Below, piece after piece: positions 8,381 to 33,074 of a DNA stretch of 64,000 nucleotides. Source of the stretch: Neolewinella litorea (GTDB taxonomy: Bacteria; Bacteroidota; Bacteroidia; Chitinophagales; Saprospiraceae); NCBI RefSeq assembly GCF_004803465.1, contig NZ_SRSF01000003.1, forward strand, positions 372,001 through 436,000. Direction: 5' to 3'. The position numbers were made by a program, and so were the translations under genes. The notes below the pieces were generated by a model. That model saw only the letters and a program-made list of their open reading frames with translations, did no database searches and was not told the DNA's origin. The first letter of the stretch is position 1. Every line of letters starts with the position of its first letter.

Positions 8381-8398
8381 AGCCTGCCCCGTGGCTGC

Positions 8399-8430
8399 AA
8401 AAGAAAAAGGGCCGGCTATCGGCCGGCCCT
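8399..8430 (-). terminator. intrinsic terminator of the ECF sigma transcript
   Basis: A perfect 8-bp GC stem (GGGCCGGC/GCCGGCCC, 5-nt loop) is followed on the minus strand by TTTTTCTTTT. This is a strong rho-independent terminator placed between the ECF sigma gene with its 3' repeats and the serine acetyltransferase promoter. Confidence 0.75.
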
Positions 8431-8586
8431 CTGAAGGTCAATGGTGATAATAATGCTTCACCAGGTTGGATAATGTAAAACTACTTGGAATGTAACTACC
8501 GGTTAATTGGAAAGAGGAATTTGTCAAGTGGTACTCTACTCCGGAAGTACAAGTTATAAATAGTGTCTAGGTGTAAAAAAAGAGTC

Positions 8587-26968: not shown

Positions 26969-29900
26969 TCAGCGGTGAGCAGAGGCTACGGCGTTAATTG
27001 CCACCCGGGCGGTATGGTCGCCGGGCAGGTCCATGTCGCCGGCATCGACCGTGTCCACCAAGTGGAGGGTGTCGGCCAGGGTTTCTTCGGTAATGTAATC
27101 GCGGTGGGCTTCGACGGCCTCCCGGACGGCCTCCGGTCCGCTCAGGCGGATGTCGATGCGGTCGGTAACCTCCAGTCCGGAATCCTTGCGGAGGTTCTGG
27201 ATGCGGCTCACCAGCTCACGGGCCAGTCCTTCGCGGGCCAGCTCCGGGGTAACGTTGACGTCGAGGGCCACGGTCAGTTCGCCATCGGTGGCCACTTTCC
27301 AGCCTGGAATGTCTTCCGTGATGATGTCTACCTCGTCGGTAGAAATGCTCACCGTTTCGCCATTGAGATTAAGCGGGTAGCTACCGTGGTTTTCCAACTC
27401 ACTGATCTGGTCGGCCGAAAGGGCACCGATGGCGGCGGCGGCGGCCTTCATCTGCTTACCGAGTCGTTTGCCAAGTACCTTGAAGTTGGGTTTGATGGTC
27501 TTCTTCAGGAAGCCATCGTCGGTGAGGAATTCCATCTCCTTGATGTTGGTTTCGGCCTGGATGATGTGGGCCACCTCCTGCACCCGCCGTCGGAACTCTT
27601 CGTCGAGGGCAGGAATAAGAATCTTCTGCAGGGGCTGCCGGACGCGCAGTTTCTCCCGCTTGCGCAGGCTAAGTACCAGTGAGGAGATTCGTTGCGCGTA
27701 GGCCATGCGGCGCTCCAGGTCCTCATCGATGACCGAGGTGTCGGCCGGTTCGAGGGTGGTGAGGTGCACTGACCCCTCCGGGCGGGAACCATTGGTGGCG
27801 GCATCGGAGCCGGCCTGGAGGTTGCGGTAGAGCCAGTCGGAGAAAAAGGGCGCTACGGGCGACATCAGCTGGGCGATCTGCTTGAGGCAGGTGTAGAGCG
27901 TCTGGTAGGCGGCGCGCTTGTCGGCGGTCATTTCGCCGCGCCAGAACCGCCGGCGGCTTTGGCGGACGTACCAGTTGCTCAGTTCGTCGTTGACGAATCC
28001 CTCGATGGCCCGACAGGCGGGCGTGGCGTCGTAGGCGGCCAGGTGGCCGTTGACCTCCCGCGTCAGGCTGTTCAGGCGGCTGAGTACCCAGCGGTCGATC
28101 TCGGCCAGTTCCGCACGATCAACGGGTGCATCCGCGGCGGGGTCGTAGCCGTCGATGTTGGCGTAGAGGGCAAAGAAGCCGTAGGTGTTGAAGAGGGTGC
28201 CGAAGAACCGACGCTGGACTTCCCGGATGCCTTCCAGGTCAAATTTCAGGTTGTCCCAGGGGGCACTGTTGCTGATCATATACCAACGGGTGGCGTCGGC
28301 CCCGTAAGTATCGATGGTGAGGAAGGGGTCGACGGCGTTGCCGAGGCGTTTGGACATCTTCTTGCCCTCCTTGTCCAGCACCAGACCATTCGAGACCACG
28401 TTCTTGAACGCCACCGAATCGAAGACCATGGTGGCGATGGCGTGCAGCGTATAGAACCACCCGCGGGTCTGGTCCACCCCCTCGGCGATGAAGTCGGCGG
28501 GGAAGGACCGCTTGAACACCTCCTCGTTCTCAAAGGGGTAGTGAAACTGTGCGTAGGGCATGCTGCCAGAATCGAACCACACGTCGATCAGGTCGAGTTC
28601 GCGCCGCAGTTCCTTGCCGTTTTTCCACAGCACTACTTCGTCGATGTAGGGGCGGTGGAGGTCCTGCGGTACTTCCTGGTCGAGACCGAGTTCGCGGTTG
28701 GCCAGGGCCACCTGCTCCTCCAGTTCGGAAATGGAGCCGATAAATACCTCTTCCGCGCCGTCCTCGCTGCGCCAGATGGGCAGGGGGATGCCCCAATAGC
28801 GGCTGCGGCTCAGGTTCCAGTCCTGCAGGTTTTCTAGCCACTTGCCAAACCGGCCTTCCCCGGTACTGGCGGGTTGCCAGTTGATGGTCCGGTTCAGTTC
28901 CTGCATCCGTTCCTTCACGGCGCTGGCCTTGATGAACCAGCTGTCGAGGGGGTAATAAAGGACGGGCTTGTCAGTGCGCCAGCAATGTGGGTAGCTGTGG
29001 TTGTACTTGGCTACGTTGAAGGCCAGACCGCGCTTCTTGAGGTGAACGGCAATGTCGACGTTCACGTCCACGTAATCCTCCTCGTCCTTGTAGTTTTTCA
29101 CGTAACGACCGGCGAAGGGGCCCGCATCCTCCGTGAACTTGCCCGTCTTATCTACCAGCGTAAGCGAGCCGATGCCGTTGGCCTTGCCCACCTGCATATC
29201 GTCGGCGCCGAAGCTGGGGGCCGTATGCACGATGCCCGTACCCGCTTCGGTGGTTACGAAATCACCGGGGATGACGCGGAAGGCGTCGCCGTCGGTGGGC
29301 ACGGCCCCGGGCAGCAGCTGCTCGTACCGCAGACCAACCAGTTCGTGCCCCTTGAAGGGCGCGCTCTTTTCTTCTACGGTCGGTTGGTTGTTTCCGCCGA
29401 ACCACTCGTCGACCAGGGCTTCGGCCAGTACGACCTCGATGGGCTCCCGGGTGTACGGGTTTACGGTTCTGACCCGGACATAATCGATGTCGGGACCCAC
29501 GGCCAGGGCGGTATTGCTGGGCAGCGTCCAGGGGGTGGTCGTCCAGGCGATGAGGTAGAGGGGGGCGTCAGAGCTTACCACTTCCTTGCCGCTGCCGGCT
29601 ACGACCTTGAACATGGCCACCACGGTGGTGTCCGTAACGTCCTGGTAGGCTCCCGGCATATTGAGCTCGTGGGAGCTCAGTCCGGTGCCCGCGGCGGGGC
29701 TGTAGGGCTGGATGGTGTAGCCTTTGTAGATGAGCCCCTTGTCGTAGATCTGCTTGAGGAGCCACCACACCGACTCCATGTATTCCCGCTCGTAGGTGAT
29801 GTAGGGGTTGTCGAGGTCCACCCAGTAGCCCATCCTGCGGGTGATGTCATCCCAGCGGTCCTTATAGCGCATGACCGTTTCCCGGCAGGCCTGGTTGTAG

Positions 29901-30241
29901 TCGTCGACGCTGATCTTGGTGCCGATGTGATCCTTGGTGATGCCGAGTTCCGATTCCACCTTCAGTTCGATCGGTAGACCGTGGGTATCCCAGCCCCCCT
30001 TCCGCTCCACGCGCTTGCCCTGCAGGGTCTGATACCGGCAGAAGACGTCCTTGATGGTGCGGGCCATCACGTGGTGGATACCCGGCTGCCCGTTGGCGCT
30101 GGGCGGGCCTTCGTAGAAGACGAAGGTGTTGTCGGTGGGTCGCTCCTCGATACTGCGCCGGAAAATATCGTGTTCCTCCCAGAAGGCTAGGATGGCTTTG
30201 TCGATGGCGGGCAGGTCGAGATTTTTATACTCCTGGTACAT
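26969..30241 (-). CDS. ileS: isoleucyl-tRNA synthetase
   Basis: The 1090-residue enzyme charges tRNA-Ile. The HIGH motif appears as GIHH (residues about 54-57, in PSANGQPGIHHVMA) and the KMSKR motif at about 628-632 (KEGKKMSKRLGN). The CP1 editing domain includes AWTTTPWTLPSN. The length and the C-terminal DUF5915-like extension fit the longer IleS type of Bacteroidota. Upstream is a leader with promoter, small isoleucine-containing frame and terminator hairpin (see separate entries), suggesting regulation by charged tRNA-Ile. A flavodoxin-like gene follows directly. Confidence 0.97.
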   Translation of the reverse strand: MYQEYKNLDLPAIDKAILAFWEEHDIFRRSIEERPTDNTFVFYEGPPSANGQPGIHHVMARTIKDVFCRYQTLQGKRVERKGGWDTHGLPIELKVESELGITKDHIGTKISVDDYNQACRETVMRYKDRWDDITRRMGYWVDLDNPYITYEREYMESVWWLLKQIYDKGLIYKGYTIQPYSPAAGTGLSSHELNMPGAYQDVTDTTVVAMFKVVAGSGKEVVSSDAPLYLIAWTTTPWTLPSNTALAVGPDIDYVRVRTVNPYTREPIEVVLAEALVDEWFGGNNQPTVEEKSAPFKGHELVGLRYEQLLPGAVPTDGDAFRVIPGDFVTTEAGTGIVHTAPSFGADDMQVGKANGIGSLTLVDKTGKFTEDAGPFAGRYVKNYKDEEDYVDVNVDIAVHLKKRGLAFNVAKYNHSYPHCWRTDKPVLYYPLDSWFIKASAVKERMQELNRTINWQPASTGEGRFGKWLENLQDWNLSRSRYWGIPLPIWRSEDGAEEVFIGSISELEEQVALANRELGLDQEVPQDLHRPYIDEVVLWKNGKELRRELDLIDVWFDSGSMPYAQFHYPFENEEVFKRSFPADFIAEGVDQTRGWFYTLHAIATMVFDSVAFKNVVSNGLVLDKEGKKMSKRLGNAVDPFLTIDTYGADATRWYMISNSAPWDNLKFDLEGIREVQRRFFGTLFNTYGFFALYANIDGYDPAADAPVDRAELAEIDRWVLSRLNSLTREVNGHLAAYDATPACRAIEGFVNDELSNWYVRQSRRRFWRGEMTADKRAAYQTLYTCLKQIAQLMSPVAPFFSDWLYRNLQAGSDAATNGSRPEGSVHLTTLEPADTSVIDEDLERRMAYAQRISSLVLSLRKREKLRVRQPLQKILIPALDEEFRRRVQEVAHIIQAETNIKEMEFLTDDGFLKKTIKPNFKVLGKRLGKQMKAAAAAIGALSADQISELENHGSYPLNLNGETVSISTDEVDIITEDIPGWKVATDGELTVALDVNVTPELAREGLARELVSRIQNLRKDSGLEVTDRIDIRLSGPEAVREAVEAHRDYITEETLADTLHLVDTVDAGDMDLPGDHTARVAINAVASAHR

Positions 30242-30260
30242 AGGGAGGGAAGATTGCGGG

Positions 30261-30305
30261 GCAAAAATAGAAAAGCTCCGATGGTGGCGGTCCGTCGGAG
30301 CTTTT
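30261..30305 (-). terminator. attenuator-type terminator in ileS leader
   Basis: On the minus strand AAAAGCTCCGA (30305-30295) and TCGGAGCTTTT (30281-30271) form a perfect 11-bp stem with a 13-nt loop, followed by CTATTTTTG. It lies between the small leader frame and the ileS start, 30 bp before the ATG. It can only matter for ileS transcription, so it is read as an attenuator rather than an end-of-gene terminator. A competing pairing is described in the findings. Confidence 0.75.
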
Positions 30306-30329
30306 GGTACGTCAGTGACGACGGTATTC

Positions 30330-30386
30330 CTACGGACAGCCGGGGCCGTCGATCAGTATACCACCGATAATGCTGCGTACAAACAT
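30330..30386 (-). CDS. putative ileS leader peptide (18 aa)
   Basis: The minus-strand frame ATG to TAG encodes MFVRSIIGGILIDGPGCP, with four isoleucines (ATT, ATC, ATA, ATC) in 18 residues, including a tandem pair. The ATG is 5 nt beyond the TACCTTTGC promoter element, so the mRNA would start at or almost at this codon (leaderless). Position, isoleucine content and the downstream terminator suggest a control peptide; no ribosome-binding site is needed for a leaderless start. It could also be chance, and no expression evidence is available. Confidence 0.5.
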   Translation of the reverse strand: MFVRSIIGGILIDGPGCP

Positions 30387-30390
30387 GGTT

Positions 30391-30399
30391 GCAAAGGTA
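30391..30399 (-). promoter_or_regulatory. -7 promoter element for ileS leader
   Basis: TACCTTTGC on the minus strand, an exact Bacteroidota -7 match, 150 bp upstream of ileS. The long distance, compared with other genes in this window, is what reveals the leader. Confidence 0.6.
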
Positions 30400-30469
30400 A
30401 CGAATTGACACCGGCCCCGGTTGCCCCCGCCAGGGGATGCAGATTATTGTGAGATAGGTGGAAAAAAAC

Positions 30470-30500
30470 TTGTCCGTTTCCTTGGTAGTGATTAAATTTA
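30470..30500 (+). promoter_or_regulatory. possible promoter of a plus-strand small RNA
   Basis: A TTG at 30470 is followed after 20 bp by TAAATTTA (30493-30500), one base off the TAnnTTTG -7 consensus with near-canonical spacing, in an AT-rich patch. Confidence 0.3.
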
Positions 30501-30504
30501 TTTT

Positions 30505-30613
30505 ACCTTAACGGTAGTGAAAGGCGGTAGATTATCCTGCTGTCTTTCCAGAGAATTAGTTTTCATTTGGTTTTTTGGGGTTATTGGGAGGCAACTTGTT
30601 GCCTCTTTTTTTT
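30505..30613 (+). ncRNA. candidate small RNA between ileS and Pif1-like helicase
   Basis: About 110 bp lie between a possible plus-strand promoter (30470-30500) and a strong plus-strand terminator (30588-30613). No coding frame on the plus strand is convincing. Nothing else on the plus strand explains the terminator, because both flanking genes are on the minus strand. The start is estimated from the -7 element. No known RNA family is recognised. Confidence 0.3.
30588..30613 (+). terminator. strong intrinsic terminator, plus strand
   Basis: An 8-bp perfect stem GAGGCAAC/GTTGCCTC is followed by eight T residues. On the minus strand no T run follows, so it acts for plus-strand transcription, where no protein gene lies upstream. 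Confidence 0.65.
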
Positions 30614-30626
30614 GGCCCGAACCAAT

Positions 30627-33074
30627 CTATCCCGGCCCCGCCACCTTCCCGGCGTCGCGGGCCGCCCGGGCAATCCGGATCTCTCCGTAGTCGAAGGCCT
30701 GCTCAAAGTGATCGTACACCTCCCGCATGGGTTGATCCTCCGGAGCCCCCGCCAGGTAGGTCACCAGCTGCTCCAGACGGTCTTCCGACACGACGGCCGC
30801 CGCAGGCAGCTCTCCCTCCTCGATCCAGTAGGCCAGGTGGCCGTAGATGGTGCCTTCCGACAACTTGCGGACGGCCGCAATTTCCGTGACCGATTTTCCT
30901 TCCCGGAACAGCCGCAGGGTCGTGTCCCGCGTGTGTTCTTTCGGCCCTGCCGGAAGCGGAGCCGCACCGCGGTCCGCCCCTTCCGGCAACTGGCTAACGT
31001 ACCTTTCCACGATCTCCAGGATTTCGTCGCCGTAGGATTCCAGCGACAGCGGTCCGAAGCCGGGAACGGCCAGCAAGGCACGCTTGTCGGCCGGCAGGAA
31101 ATTACTGATCCCGAGCAGCACGGTATTGTGCAGTACCCTGTAGGGGGGCAGGTCAGCGGACTGGGCAGTAGCGGACCGCCACGCGGCTAGTTGGCTGTAC
31201 AGATCCGGGTGCGCCGTCTCGGTGATCGCCGGTGCCGCCGGCCGCCGGGTCTTTTGCTGCTTCTCGAAGTCGAGGGTGGCATCCGCCTTGGCGCGTAGGT
31301 AGCTTTCCGCCCGGAATCCATCCCGCGCTACCCCGAAGGCACGCAGCTTGACGGAGAGCTCGAGACCGGCCTCTTTAAGCCGGTCGGAAATGGCATCGTA
31401 CACCTTCTGGTTGTCGGACATGAAGGAAAGCTGGCCTAGTTCGGCGTAGACGGATTCCAGGTGCGGAAGCAGGTATTCGCCTGCCTTGCGGAGGCGTTTG
31501 GCGAGCTCCTCATTGTCTGCGGGTAGTTCCTCCGCCTGTGCGTAGTTCTCCAGCTGGGCACTGAAGGTGCGGCACAACTGGGCCACTTCCCTTTCCAGTT
31601 GGGTACGCAGGGCGCGCAGTTGTGTCAGCCCTTCCCCCTGGATGGACCGCTCGTGCTCGAAGAGCCCCCGCTCCAGTTGGGCCAGCCGCTGGTCCATGCC
31701 CGTGAAGTCGAAGAGCTCGCGCAGGCAATTCAGTTGGTAACGGCGCCGGTCTTCCCGTAAATCCGCTTCGGTGGGGGCCTGCTCTTCGGCCCTGGTGGAG
31801 TAATCCTTCACCACGCGGTCGGTCTTCACGCTGTGGTCGCCGATCCGGCTGCGCAACACGATTCCCTCGAAGGTTTTGCACCGACTCAGTGCCACATAGA
31901 CCTGTCCGTGGGCGAAGGCGTCCGCCGCGTCGATGATCACGCGCTCGAAGGTGAGTCCCTGGCTCTTGTGGATGGTGATGGCCCAGGCCAGCCGCAGGGG
32001 GTGCTGCGTGTAGGTGCCGATCACCTCGTCGTTTACCTCCTTGGTTTTGGTGTTGAGCTCGTACTTGCGGTTTTCCCAATCCACCGGCAATACGGTGATC
32101 GCCTCCTCGTCGTCCGGACACTGCACGGTAATGCGATCACCCTCGATGGCGGTGATGCGGCCGATCTTGCCGTTGAAGTAGCGGTGTTCGACGGTGTCGT
32201 TCTTGTTGAACATCACCTGGGCACCCACCCGAAAATGCAGGGTGGGGTCGTTGGGATACATCGAAGCCGGGAAGTTGCCCGATACTTCCGCTTCAAAGGT
32301 GTGGAGGGGCCAGGGCAGGGTGCCCAGCTGGCGATCGTTGATGGCGTTGGCCGTACGGTTGTGCGACGTTAGCGTGATGTAATCGTCGCCGGAAGCGGGG
32401 GCGAAGTCGGGGCCCCGGTAGCGGGAATTCAGTTGCGCCAGGGTCTCCTGGTCGAGGCGGTCGTGGCGTACCCGGTTCAACAGTTCGATGAAGACGGCGT
32501 CCGACTGCCGGTATATGTGCTTCAACTGGATGGTGACCACCCCCGCCCGACGCAGTTCGACGCTGCCGAAAAAGTAGGGCGTTTCGTAGTCAGTTCGCAT
32601 CTGGTTCCATTCCTCGTCGCGCACTACGGGGGGCAGTTGGTGCAGGTCGCCGATCATAAGCAACTGCACACCACCGAAGGGGCGGGAGTCGGCCCGGTAC
32701 TTCCGCAGTACCGCGCTCAGGGCATCCAGCACGTCCGCCCGCACCATACTGATCTCATCGATCACCAGCAGGTCCAGGCTCCGCAGCACATCAGCTTTTT
32801 TGCGGTTCAGGCGGTGGGTTCGCATTTCGGCCTCGATGCGGGCCGGCGTGAGCACCCCGAAAGGCAACTGAAACTGGCTGTGGATCGTGACGCCCCGGGC
32901 GTTGATGGCCGCTACGCCCGTAGGGGCTACCACGACCTTGCGCTTCGGCACCGAATCGCGTATGCCGTGCAGGAAAGTGGTCTTTCCCGTTCCGGCCTTG
33001 CCGGTGAGGAAAATGTGGCGGTCGGTTTGGCTGACGTACTGGTGGGCGAGTTCCAGCTCCGGATTGGTAGACAT
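30627..33074 (-). CDS. Pif1-like DNA helicase with HRDC and HTH modules
   Basis: The 815-residue protein has an N-terminal superfamily 1 Pif1/RRM3-type helicase core: Walker A LTGKAGTGKTTFL (about 23-35), Walker B LLVIDEISMV, GDLHQLPPV, and motif VI region QVYVALSRCKTFEG. A coiled region follows, then an HRDC-like domain (LLGISNFLPADKRALLAVPGFGPLSLESYGDEIL) and a C-terminal RecQ-type helix-turn-helix (TLRLFREGKSVTEIAAVRKLSEGTIYGHLAYWIEEGEL). Pif1 helicases unwind DNA, including G-quadruplexes and replication barriers; the accessory modules suggest DNA-end or structure binding. The ATG at 33074 is chosen over the frame opening at 33257 because it starts MSTNPELELAHQYVSQT. A palindrome lies 52 bp upstream. 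Confidence 0.88.
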   Translation of the reverse strand: MSTNPELELAHQYVSQTDRHIFLTGKAGTGKTTFLHGIRDSVPKRKVVVAPTGVAAINARGVTIHSQFQLPFGVLTPARIEAEMRTHRLNRKKADVLRSLDLLVIDEISMVRADVLDALSAVLRKYRADSRPFGGVQLLMIGDLHQLPPVVRDEEWNQMRTDYETPYFFGSVELRRAGVVTIQLKHIYRQSDAVFIELLNRVRHDRLDQETLAQLNSRYRGPDFAPASGDDYITLTSHNRTANAINDRQLGTLPWPLHTFEAEVSGNFPASMYPNDPTLHFRVGAQVMFNKNDTVEHRYFNGKIGRITAIEGDRITVQCPDDEEAITVLPVDWENRKYELNTKTKEVNDEVIGTYTQHPLRLAWAITIHKSQGLTFERVIIDAADAFAHGQVYVALSRCKTFEGIVLRSRIGDHSVKTDRVVKDYSTRAEEQAPTEADLREDRRRYQLNCLRELFDFTGMDQRLAQLERGLFEHERSIQGEGLTQLRALRTQLEREVAQLCRTFSAQLENYAQAEELPADNEELAKRLRKAGEYLLPHLESVYAELGQLSFMSDNQKVYDAISDRLKEAGLELSVKLRAFGVARDGFRAESYLRAKADATLDFEKQQKTRRPAAPAITETAHPDLYSQLAAWRSATAQSADLPPYRVLHNTVLLGISNFLPADKRALLAVPGFGPLSLESYGDEILEIVERYVSQLPEGADRGAAPLPAGPKEHTRDTTLRLFREGKSVTEIAAVRKLSEGTIYGHLAYWIEEGELPAAAVVSEDRLEQLVTYLAGAPEDQPMREVYDHFEQAFDYGEIRIARAARDAGKVAGPG

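Follow-up and report, generated by a model that had tools for sequence, protein, structure and literature searches.

A probable ribosome-mediated attenuator ahead of the isoleucyl-tRNA synthetase gene in Neolewinella and other Saprospiraceae

Does the short region ahead of ileS in Neolewinella litorea adjust the gene to the supply of isoleucine? The window (the whole stretch of DNA analysed, 64,000 nucleotides of contig NZ_SRSF01000003.1) carries a small Ile-rich reading frame and an intrinsic terminator directly upstream of ileS, and the arrangement is very probably a ribosome-mediated transcription attenuator that raises ileS expression when charged Ile-tRNA runs short. A re-reading of the sequence finds the parts named in an earlier, sequence-only reading where that reading had put them: the promoter box, the 18-codon frame with four Ile codons, the 11-bp hairpin, and a competing pairing at 11 of 13 positions, GGCTGTCCGTAGG (30341-30329) with CCGACGGACCGCC (30298-30286), checked by hand. 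The features, with the evidence for each, are as follows.

30391..30399, minus strand: candidate promoter P1, TACCTTTGC, a consensus match to the Bacteroidota -7 box (TAnnTTTG), with 5 nt between its G and the leader ATG; transcription is predicted to start 1 nt ahead of the AUG
30330..30386, minus strand: leader peptide frame, ATG to TAG, MFVRSIIGGILIDGPGCP and stop, 18 codons with four Ile (ATT ATC ATA ATC)
30358..30366, minus strand: guard helix, 5' strand, CGGTGGTAT, within the run of Ile codons (folding; native against swapped partners)
30319..30327, minus strand: guard helix, 3' strand, ATACCGTCG, immediately 3' of the leader stop (folding; native against swapped partners)
30329..30341, minus strand: antiterminator, 5' half, GGCTGTCCGTAGG, over the last leader codons and the stop (folding; family covariation and swap test)
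30286..30298, minus strand: antiterminator, 3' half, CCGACGGACCGCC, over the left arm and loop of the terminator (folding; family covariation and swap test)
30271..30305, minus strand: intrinsic terminator, AAAAGCTCCGA(13 nt)TCGGAGCTTTT, followed by a T tract; the stem is a perfect 11 bp, 30305-30295 with 30281-30271 (folding; covariation of the homologous hairpin)
30261..30269, minus strand: P2, TATTTTTGC, a second -7-like box inside the T tract and putative basal ileS promoter, 20 nt before the ileS ATG
26969..30241, minus strand: ileS, isoleucyl-tRNA synthetase, full-length at 1090 aa, ATG at 30241 (Pfam PF00133, PF08264, PF19302), 84% identical to that of a same-genus relative (G006)

The attenuators of Escherichia coli pheST, trp, his and ilv combine a short frame of cognate codons, a protector hairpin, and an antiterminator and terminator that exclude each other; in pheST the target is itself a synthetase gene. 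The Neolewinella locus appears to share this plan, with a short frame rich in Ile codons, an intrinsic terminator between leader and gene, a candidate competing antiterminator and, as far as predicted pairing tells, a protector hairpin in the guard helix. The residue that would be sensed is the one that the downstream gene uses. The locus differs from the E. coli cases in its target, ileS, in its phylum, in an antiterminator 5' half that overlaps the leader stop itself, in a leader mRNA predicted to be nearly leaderless, and in a promoter-like box fused to the T tract. In the proposed mechanism, P1 would give rise to a leader mRNA beginning at the leader AUG or 1 nt before it. With ample Ile-tRNA, a ribosome at the leader stop would cover the antiterminator 5' half, the terminator would form, and transcription would end before ileS. 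Under a shortage of charged Ile-tRNA, the ribosome would stall in the Ile codons and leave that 5' half free to pair with the left arm and loop of the terminator before the right arm exists, and ileS would be transcribed. Should the leader not be translated, the guard helix would hold the 5' half, the terminator would form and the switch would stay off. P2, just past the terminator, may supply basal ileS transcription.

The window alone carries this reading only part of the way. The fold of 30390-30242 has z = -2.95 against dinucleotide shuffles, and at least four Ile in 17 codons has P = 0.006 given how often Ile occurs in 30 of the window's long frames, an enrichment that at this P value is only suggestive by itself. 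The real case for the putative attenuator is comparative.

A fixed detector called frames that start with ATG, run for 8-45 codons, hold four or more Ile, end at most 75 nt before an intrinsic terminator and lie at most 400 nt from ileS. Twenty of 21 same-genus genomes were matched with ileS and 19 gave usable regions, the leader of the twentieth (G114) being cut by a contig end; 100 Saprospiraceae genomes searched with ileS gave 89 usable upstream regions, 11 genomes giving none. Leader and terminator precede ileS in 16 of the 19 genus regions and 37 of the 89 family regions (two counted in both). The same combination occurs in 3 of 890 shuffles and in 1 of 99 regions presumed to lie outside the family. 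Of these 99, 29 belong to other families of the class and 70 are named records picked by their titles, some of which say no more than Bacteroidota or Bacteroidetes; the sole match among them (L180) has a 36-codon frame and looks like chance. Ten records were Saprospiraceae or Haliscomenobacteraceae by title or by assignment, and two of them, L153 (Neolewinella aquimaris DSM 105137) and L155, are positive. The detector has its faults: it misses the element in L013, L050, L074 and L105, the frames it calls in L085 and L024 are wrong or too long, and its positives L017, L027, L060 and L066 are weak. The leader appears dispensable, since 48 to 52 of the 89 family regions are without a detectable one.

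A covariance model (R1), trained on 28 family sequences with the genus left out, recovers the four loci that the detector missed together with L098, a locus with an eroded Ile leader. At E<=1e-5, R1 matches 104 of 298 family genomes, which represent 52 of 112 genera. The 104 include 27 training genomes but neither the window's genome nor any other listed member of the genus, and for a minority of them the position relative to ileS is confirmed. A scan of the order at the same threshold returns 19 genomes, all in Saprospiraceae. ileS starts within 1.5 kb in 16 of these 19 loci; in L138 it lies further downstream with other genes intervening, and L133 and L140 reach contig ends. The window's own copy alone is not significant with this family-built model, at 23.3 bits (E 0.083 in 64 kb) and tied with a chance match at 8398-8522. 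In the order scan, the ileS sites of four genus relatives (G100, G102, G106, G111) reach 40 to 45 bits, but ten other listed genus genomes give nothing at E<=0.01, and what matches in the window's genome is a bare terminator elsewhere. The window's presumed membership is based on the genus alignment (A1, in which the 5' end of L046 was trimmed) and on position rather than on R1.

A tree was built from 49 partial ileS sequences, 31 of them scored as having the attenuator. The attenuator requires 10 changes on it, compared with 15.0 for shuffles (3 of 500 needed no more), so presence is clustered, with repeated losses or gains. The tree is rough, since three named outside records (L163, L164, L167) fall inside the family, the first two on long branches. 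Two sister genus genomes illustrate decay, G105 (L038) with a degenerate leader of three Ile and G117 (L039) with its leader lost; both retain the box at the terminator end.

Where the leader is kept, most of the variation in its Ile codons falls on the third base. Across the Ile columns conserved in 16 genus leaders, 600 pairs show 30 differences at the first codon position, 69 at the second and 167 at the third; in 30 of the 35 non-genus family leaders (without L017, L024, L027, L066 and L085) the figures are 238, 422 and 1,050 for 2,422 pairs. Codon choice in leaders was compared with that in long frames by Fisher tests. The genus leaders use ATT 48, ATC 9 and ATA 16 times at these columns, against ATT 118, ATC 566 and ATA 31 in the 30 long frames of the window, where ATA makes up 4% of Ile codons; ileS has no ATA among 58 Ile codons. 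All 16 genus leaders retain one ATA (AUA) codon.

Both competing helices covary. In an alignment of 28 of the 35 non-genus positives (L005, L017, L024, L027, L060, L066 and L085 dropped), the terminator is paired in 98.5% of cells, with 45 two-sided changes against 9.1 in shuffles, and the antiterminator in 87.5%, with 18 against 5.4; for each, the covariation score is equalled in 0 of 500 shuffles. Counted by pair, the antiterminator signal is thinner, four pairs showing a two-sided change against 2.4 in shuffles, a number reached by 49 of 500. Sliding the antiterminator out of register drops pairing to 26-40%. In the same 28 sequences, native antiterminator partners form a duplex of -11.4 kcal/mol on average against -8.2 for swapped ones, a value that 0 of 10,000 permutations reached with foreign partners, and a sequence's own partner beats the median partner in 22 of 28. 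The guard helix pairs the Ile codons, frequently by way of an AGC Ser codon lying among them, with sequence just 3' of the leader stop. It averages -8.7 kcal/mol native against -7.1 swapped (0 of 10,000 as low), the own partner being better in 18 of 28; it would explain the frequent Ser codon inside the Ile run. Within the genus, the swap test is weaker for the guard helix (413 of 10,000). It is uninformative for the antiterminator (6,896 of 10,000), and covariation is absent there, because the core hardly varies. The sequence-only reading had proposed Ile-responsive attenuation and had named kept Ile codons and covarying terminator and antiterminator stems in relatives as its check; that comparison was run and came out in its favour, and codon conservation, covariation, swap test and relatives together argue for attenuation. 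The guard helix is an amendment, having been missed in that reading.

Folding of the separate states agrees with the proposed switch up to a point. With ribosome reach assumed to be 12 nt ahead of the decoding site, and the window leader folded to the end of the terminator loop, a stalled ribosome leaves the antiterminator as the predicted structure (-22.5 kcal/mol at Ile6 or Ile10, -15.6 at Ile12), a ribosome at the stop removes it, and an absent ribosome gives the guard helix in its place; the terminator hairpin alone reaches -17.5 kcal/mol. In the 51 positives, at least six pairs join upstream sequence to the terminator left arm or loop in all 51 when the ribosome is stalled and in 13 when it is at the stop, a count made without a shuffle control. 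Switching between stalled and stopped ribosomes, as first proposed, is predicted for the leader folded only to the terminator loop, but the whole window leader, with the right terminator arm included, has the terminator in its minimum-energy fold in every state, the stalled one too. The antiterminator would therefore have to form first and persist while polymerase passes. Such an order of events is the classical attenuation model.

How transcription reaches ileS depends on the promoter boxes, which are matches to the TAnnTTTG consensus; no clear -33 element was seen for P1 or P2. The gap from the G of the box to the leader ATG is 4 nt in 11 genus leaders and 5 nt in four, the window included (15 of 16 in all). 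In Flavobacterium psychrophilum, the -7 box lies at -12 to -5, according to the portions of PMC9723704 compared. Given that position and these gaps, transcription is predicted to start at the A of the ATG or 1 nt before it, and the genus leader mRNA should be nearly leaderless. This appears to be mainly a genus trait: among the 35 non-genus family positives, the gap is 5-7 nt in three, 16-25 nt in 12 and 41 nt in one, and 19 have no box within 60 nt.

The stretch at 30269-30261 had been described as a T tract; it is one, but TATTTTTGC also matches the -7 box. A second -7-like box starts -6 to +17 nt from the terminator end in 31 of 51 attenuators, against 1 of 21 other terminators after cleaning by eye (Fisher p = 6e-6 for the cleaned set) and 8 of 34 before; the 13 set aside, seven of the eight positives among them, are hairpins of ileS attenuators, some of them on the other strand. 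No box stands between terminator and ileS in 17 of the 51, and regions without an attenuator have a box within 100 nt of ileS in 39 of 49. With such a box directly after the terminator, ileS here is probably not reliant on antitermination alone. Short repeats of the AGGTTGCA type lie between terminator and ileS in L043 and L047, in the place without a P2 box.

The second box also makes room for a different account, in which P1 and the terminator would bound an independent small gene whose Ile-rich peptide, or RNA, acts in trans, and ileS is transcribed from P2 only. The 31 boxes after terminators fit it, as does G117, which lost the leader and kept the P2 box, and trans-acting leader peptides are known, peTrpL of Sinorhizobium meliloti being described in the part of PMC7298713 compared. 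This account is nonetheless unlikely: it leaves a competing antiterminator that is conserved and covarying, and Ile codons that fit the downstream gene. Moreover, seven of 19 genus members (L042-L045, L047, L049, L050) keep the attenuator with no box before ileS, one has a box with no attenuator, and none of the 19 lacks both.

An extension of the attenuator reading specific to Neolewinella is more doubtful than the attenuator itself and is offered tentatively. It takes the locus as a two-promoter switch on a leaderless mRNA, in which stalling at rare Ile codons (AUA) would open read-through from P1, the T tract would be the -7 box of a basal ileS promoter, and cassette copies in some relatives would put defence-like genes under Ile-tRNA control. 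Terminator, promoter and attenuator would then share bases, because the T tract doubles as the P2 -7 box. A box in the terminator tail would amount to a compact basal and emergency supply for an essential gene, and the predicted leaderless leader makes testable how translation independent of a Shine-Dalgarno sequence starts early enough for attenuation. If true, a cassette duplicated around or preceding Fic, Uma2, DUF433/DUF5615 and Abi_C genes would place these, too, under such control.

That the hairpin is a plain terminator insulating ileS from upstream transcription, with frame and complementarity incidental, is disfavoured and very improbable. The terminator is the most conserved part of the element, and strong terminators alone reach R1 E values of about 3e-4 and weaker in unrelated places; against this stand the conserved Ile leader with its mostly third-base variation, the covarying antiterminator, and the near absence of the combination outside the family. 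Candidates rejected as terminators are several. R1 gives nine matches at E<=10 in the window's own genome, of which the three stronger ones inspected (L115, L117, L118) are bare terminators. Outside the family, 18 genomes of the order match at E<=0.01 (best 3.1e-4), and the five inspected (L145, L146, L148, L149, L152) are plain terminators, as is one in-family match (L144). A scan of the class gives 2 of 395 genomes at E<=1e-4, both outside the family, one an ilvE-ilvD leader and one a bare terminator.

An untranslated T-box, or another leader that binds a ligand or tRNA, is disfavoured and barely credible: the ileS leader is short for a T-box and has a conserved reading frame, Rfam matches at gathering score are absent from the window and comprise only a tRNA in eight related loci, and a permissive Rfam scan of 29900-30700 returned six matches far below cut-offs, none of them a T-box. 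In its favour, ileS is a known T-box target in Actinobacteria, where, in the parts of PMC1262725 compared, peptide attenuators precede leuS and trpS and the ileS T-boxes are thought to act on translation. The actinobacterial cases share with the one proposed here the attenuation of tRNA synthetase genes and an ileS under leader RNA control, and differ in that ileS there has a T-box (PMC1262725, same parts).

For the leader-peptide attenuator, no counterpart before ileS was recognised in the open-licence literature, in Saprospiraceae or elsewhere, in line with the earlier remark that none is known to have been described in Bacteroidota. The S. meliloti trpL attenuator RNA, rnTrpL, starts with the AUG of the leader frame, according to the text of PMC7298713 compared, a likeness to the start predicted here; it differs in sensing Trp, in its target trpE(G) and in belonging to the Alphaproteobacteria, and a second promoter at the terminator goes unmentioned in that text. 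In the same phylum, leader peptide attenuation has been suggested for amino acid biosynthesis operons of F. psychrophilum, and some of its tRNA synthetase mRNAs have structured 5' UTRs; ileS and Saprospiraceae are not named in the main-text portions compared (PMC9723704). If the attenuator reading is true, ileS joins the genes under leader-peptide attenuation, with a strong comparative case (52 of 112 sampled genera matching R1) from a phylum in which little is mapped of how amino acid genes are controlled at the RNA level.

Related leaders occur before other genes. R1, built on ileS loci, also finds in a genome of another Bacteroidia family (G625) the leader MNRFLNIIISIVIISSPPS (followed by its stop) with a terminator, preceding the branched-chain biosynthesis genes ilvE-ilvD rather than ileS. 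The ilvE-ilvD genes there are preceded by two leader frames in a row, MNTRILNIISIIVVVIIISQG and MNRFLNIIISIVIISSPPS, both of which have a terminator of their own (L277 / L282). A similar Ile-rich leader is seen by eye before ilvE in L283 (G921); L284 is without one. In the window's own genome, valS, leuS and two ilvD/edd-type genes have no Ile, Leu or Val leader with a terminator. Upstream of an ilvD-type gene (L268, G000:C1), a hairpin ATAGCCGC..GCGGCTAT sits just before the start, and no Ile/Leu/Val leader was found with it.

Four loci of the attenuator (L275 in G306, L279 in G056, L280 in G754, L281 in G003) have genes between it and ileS. Direct repeats of about 227 bp (97%) containing the attenuator flank a Fic gene in G056. 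Repeats in G306 (84%) flank Uma2, with a DUF433/DUF5615 pair and then ileS following, and those in G754 (96%) flank a lipoprotein-like frame on the opposite strand. In G003, a gene with an Abi_C domain stands between attenuator and ileS.
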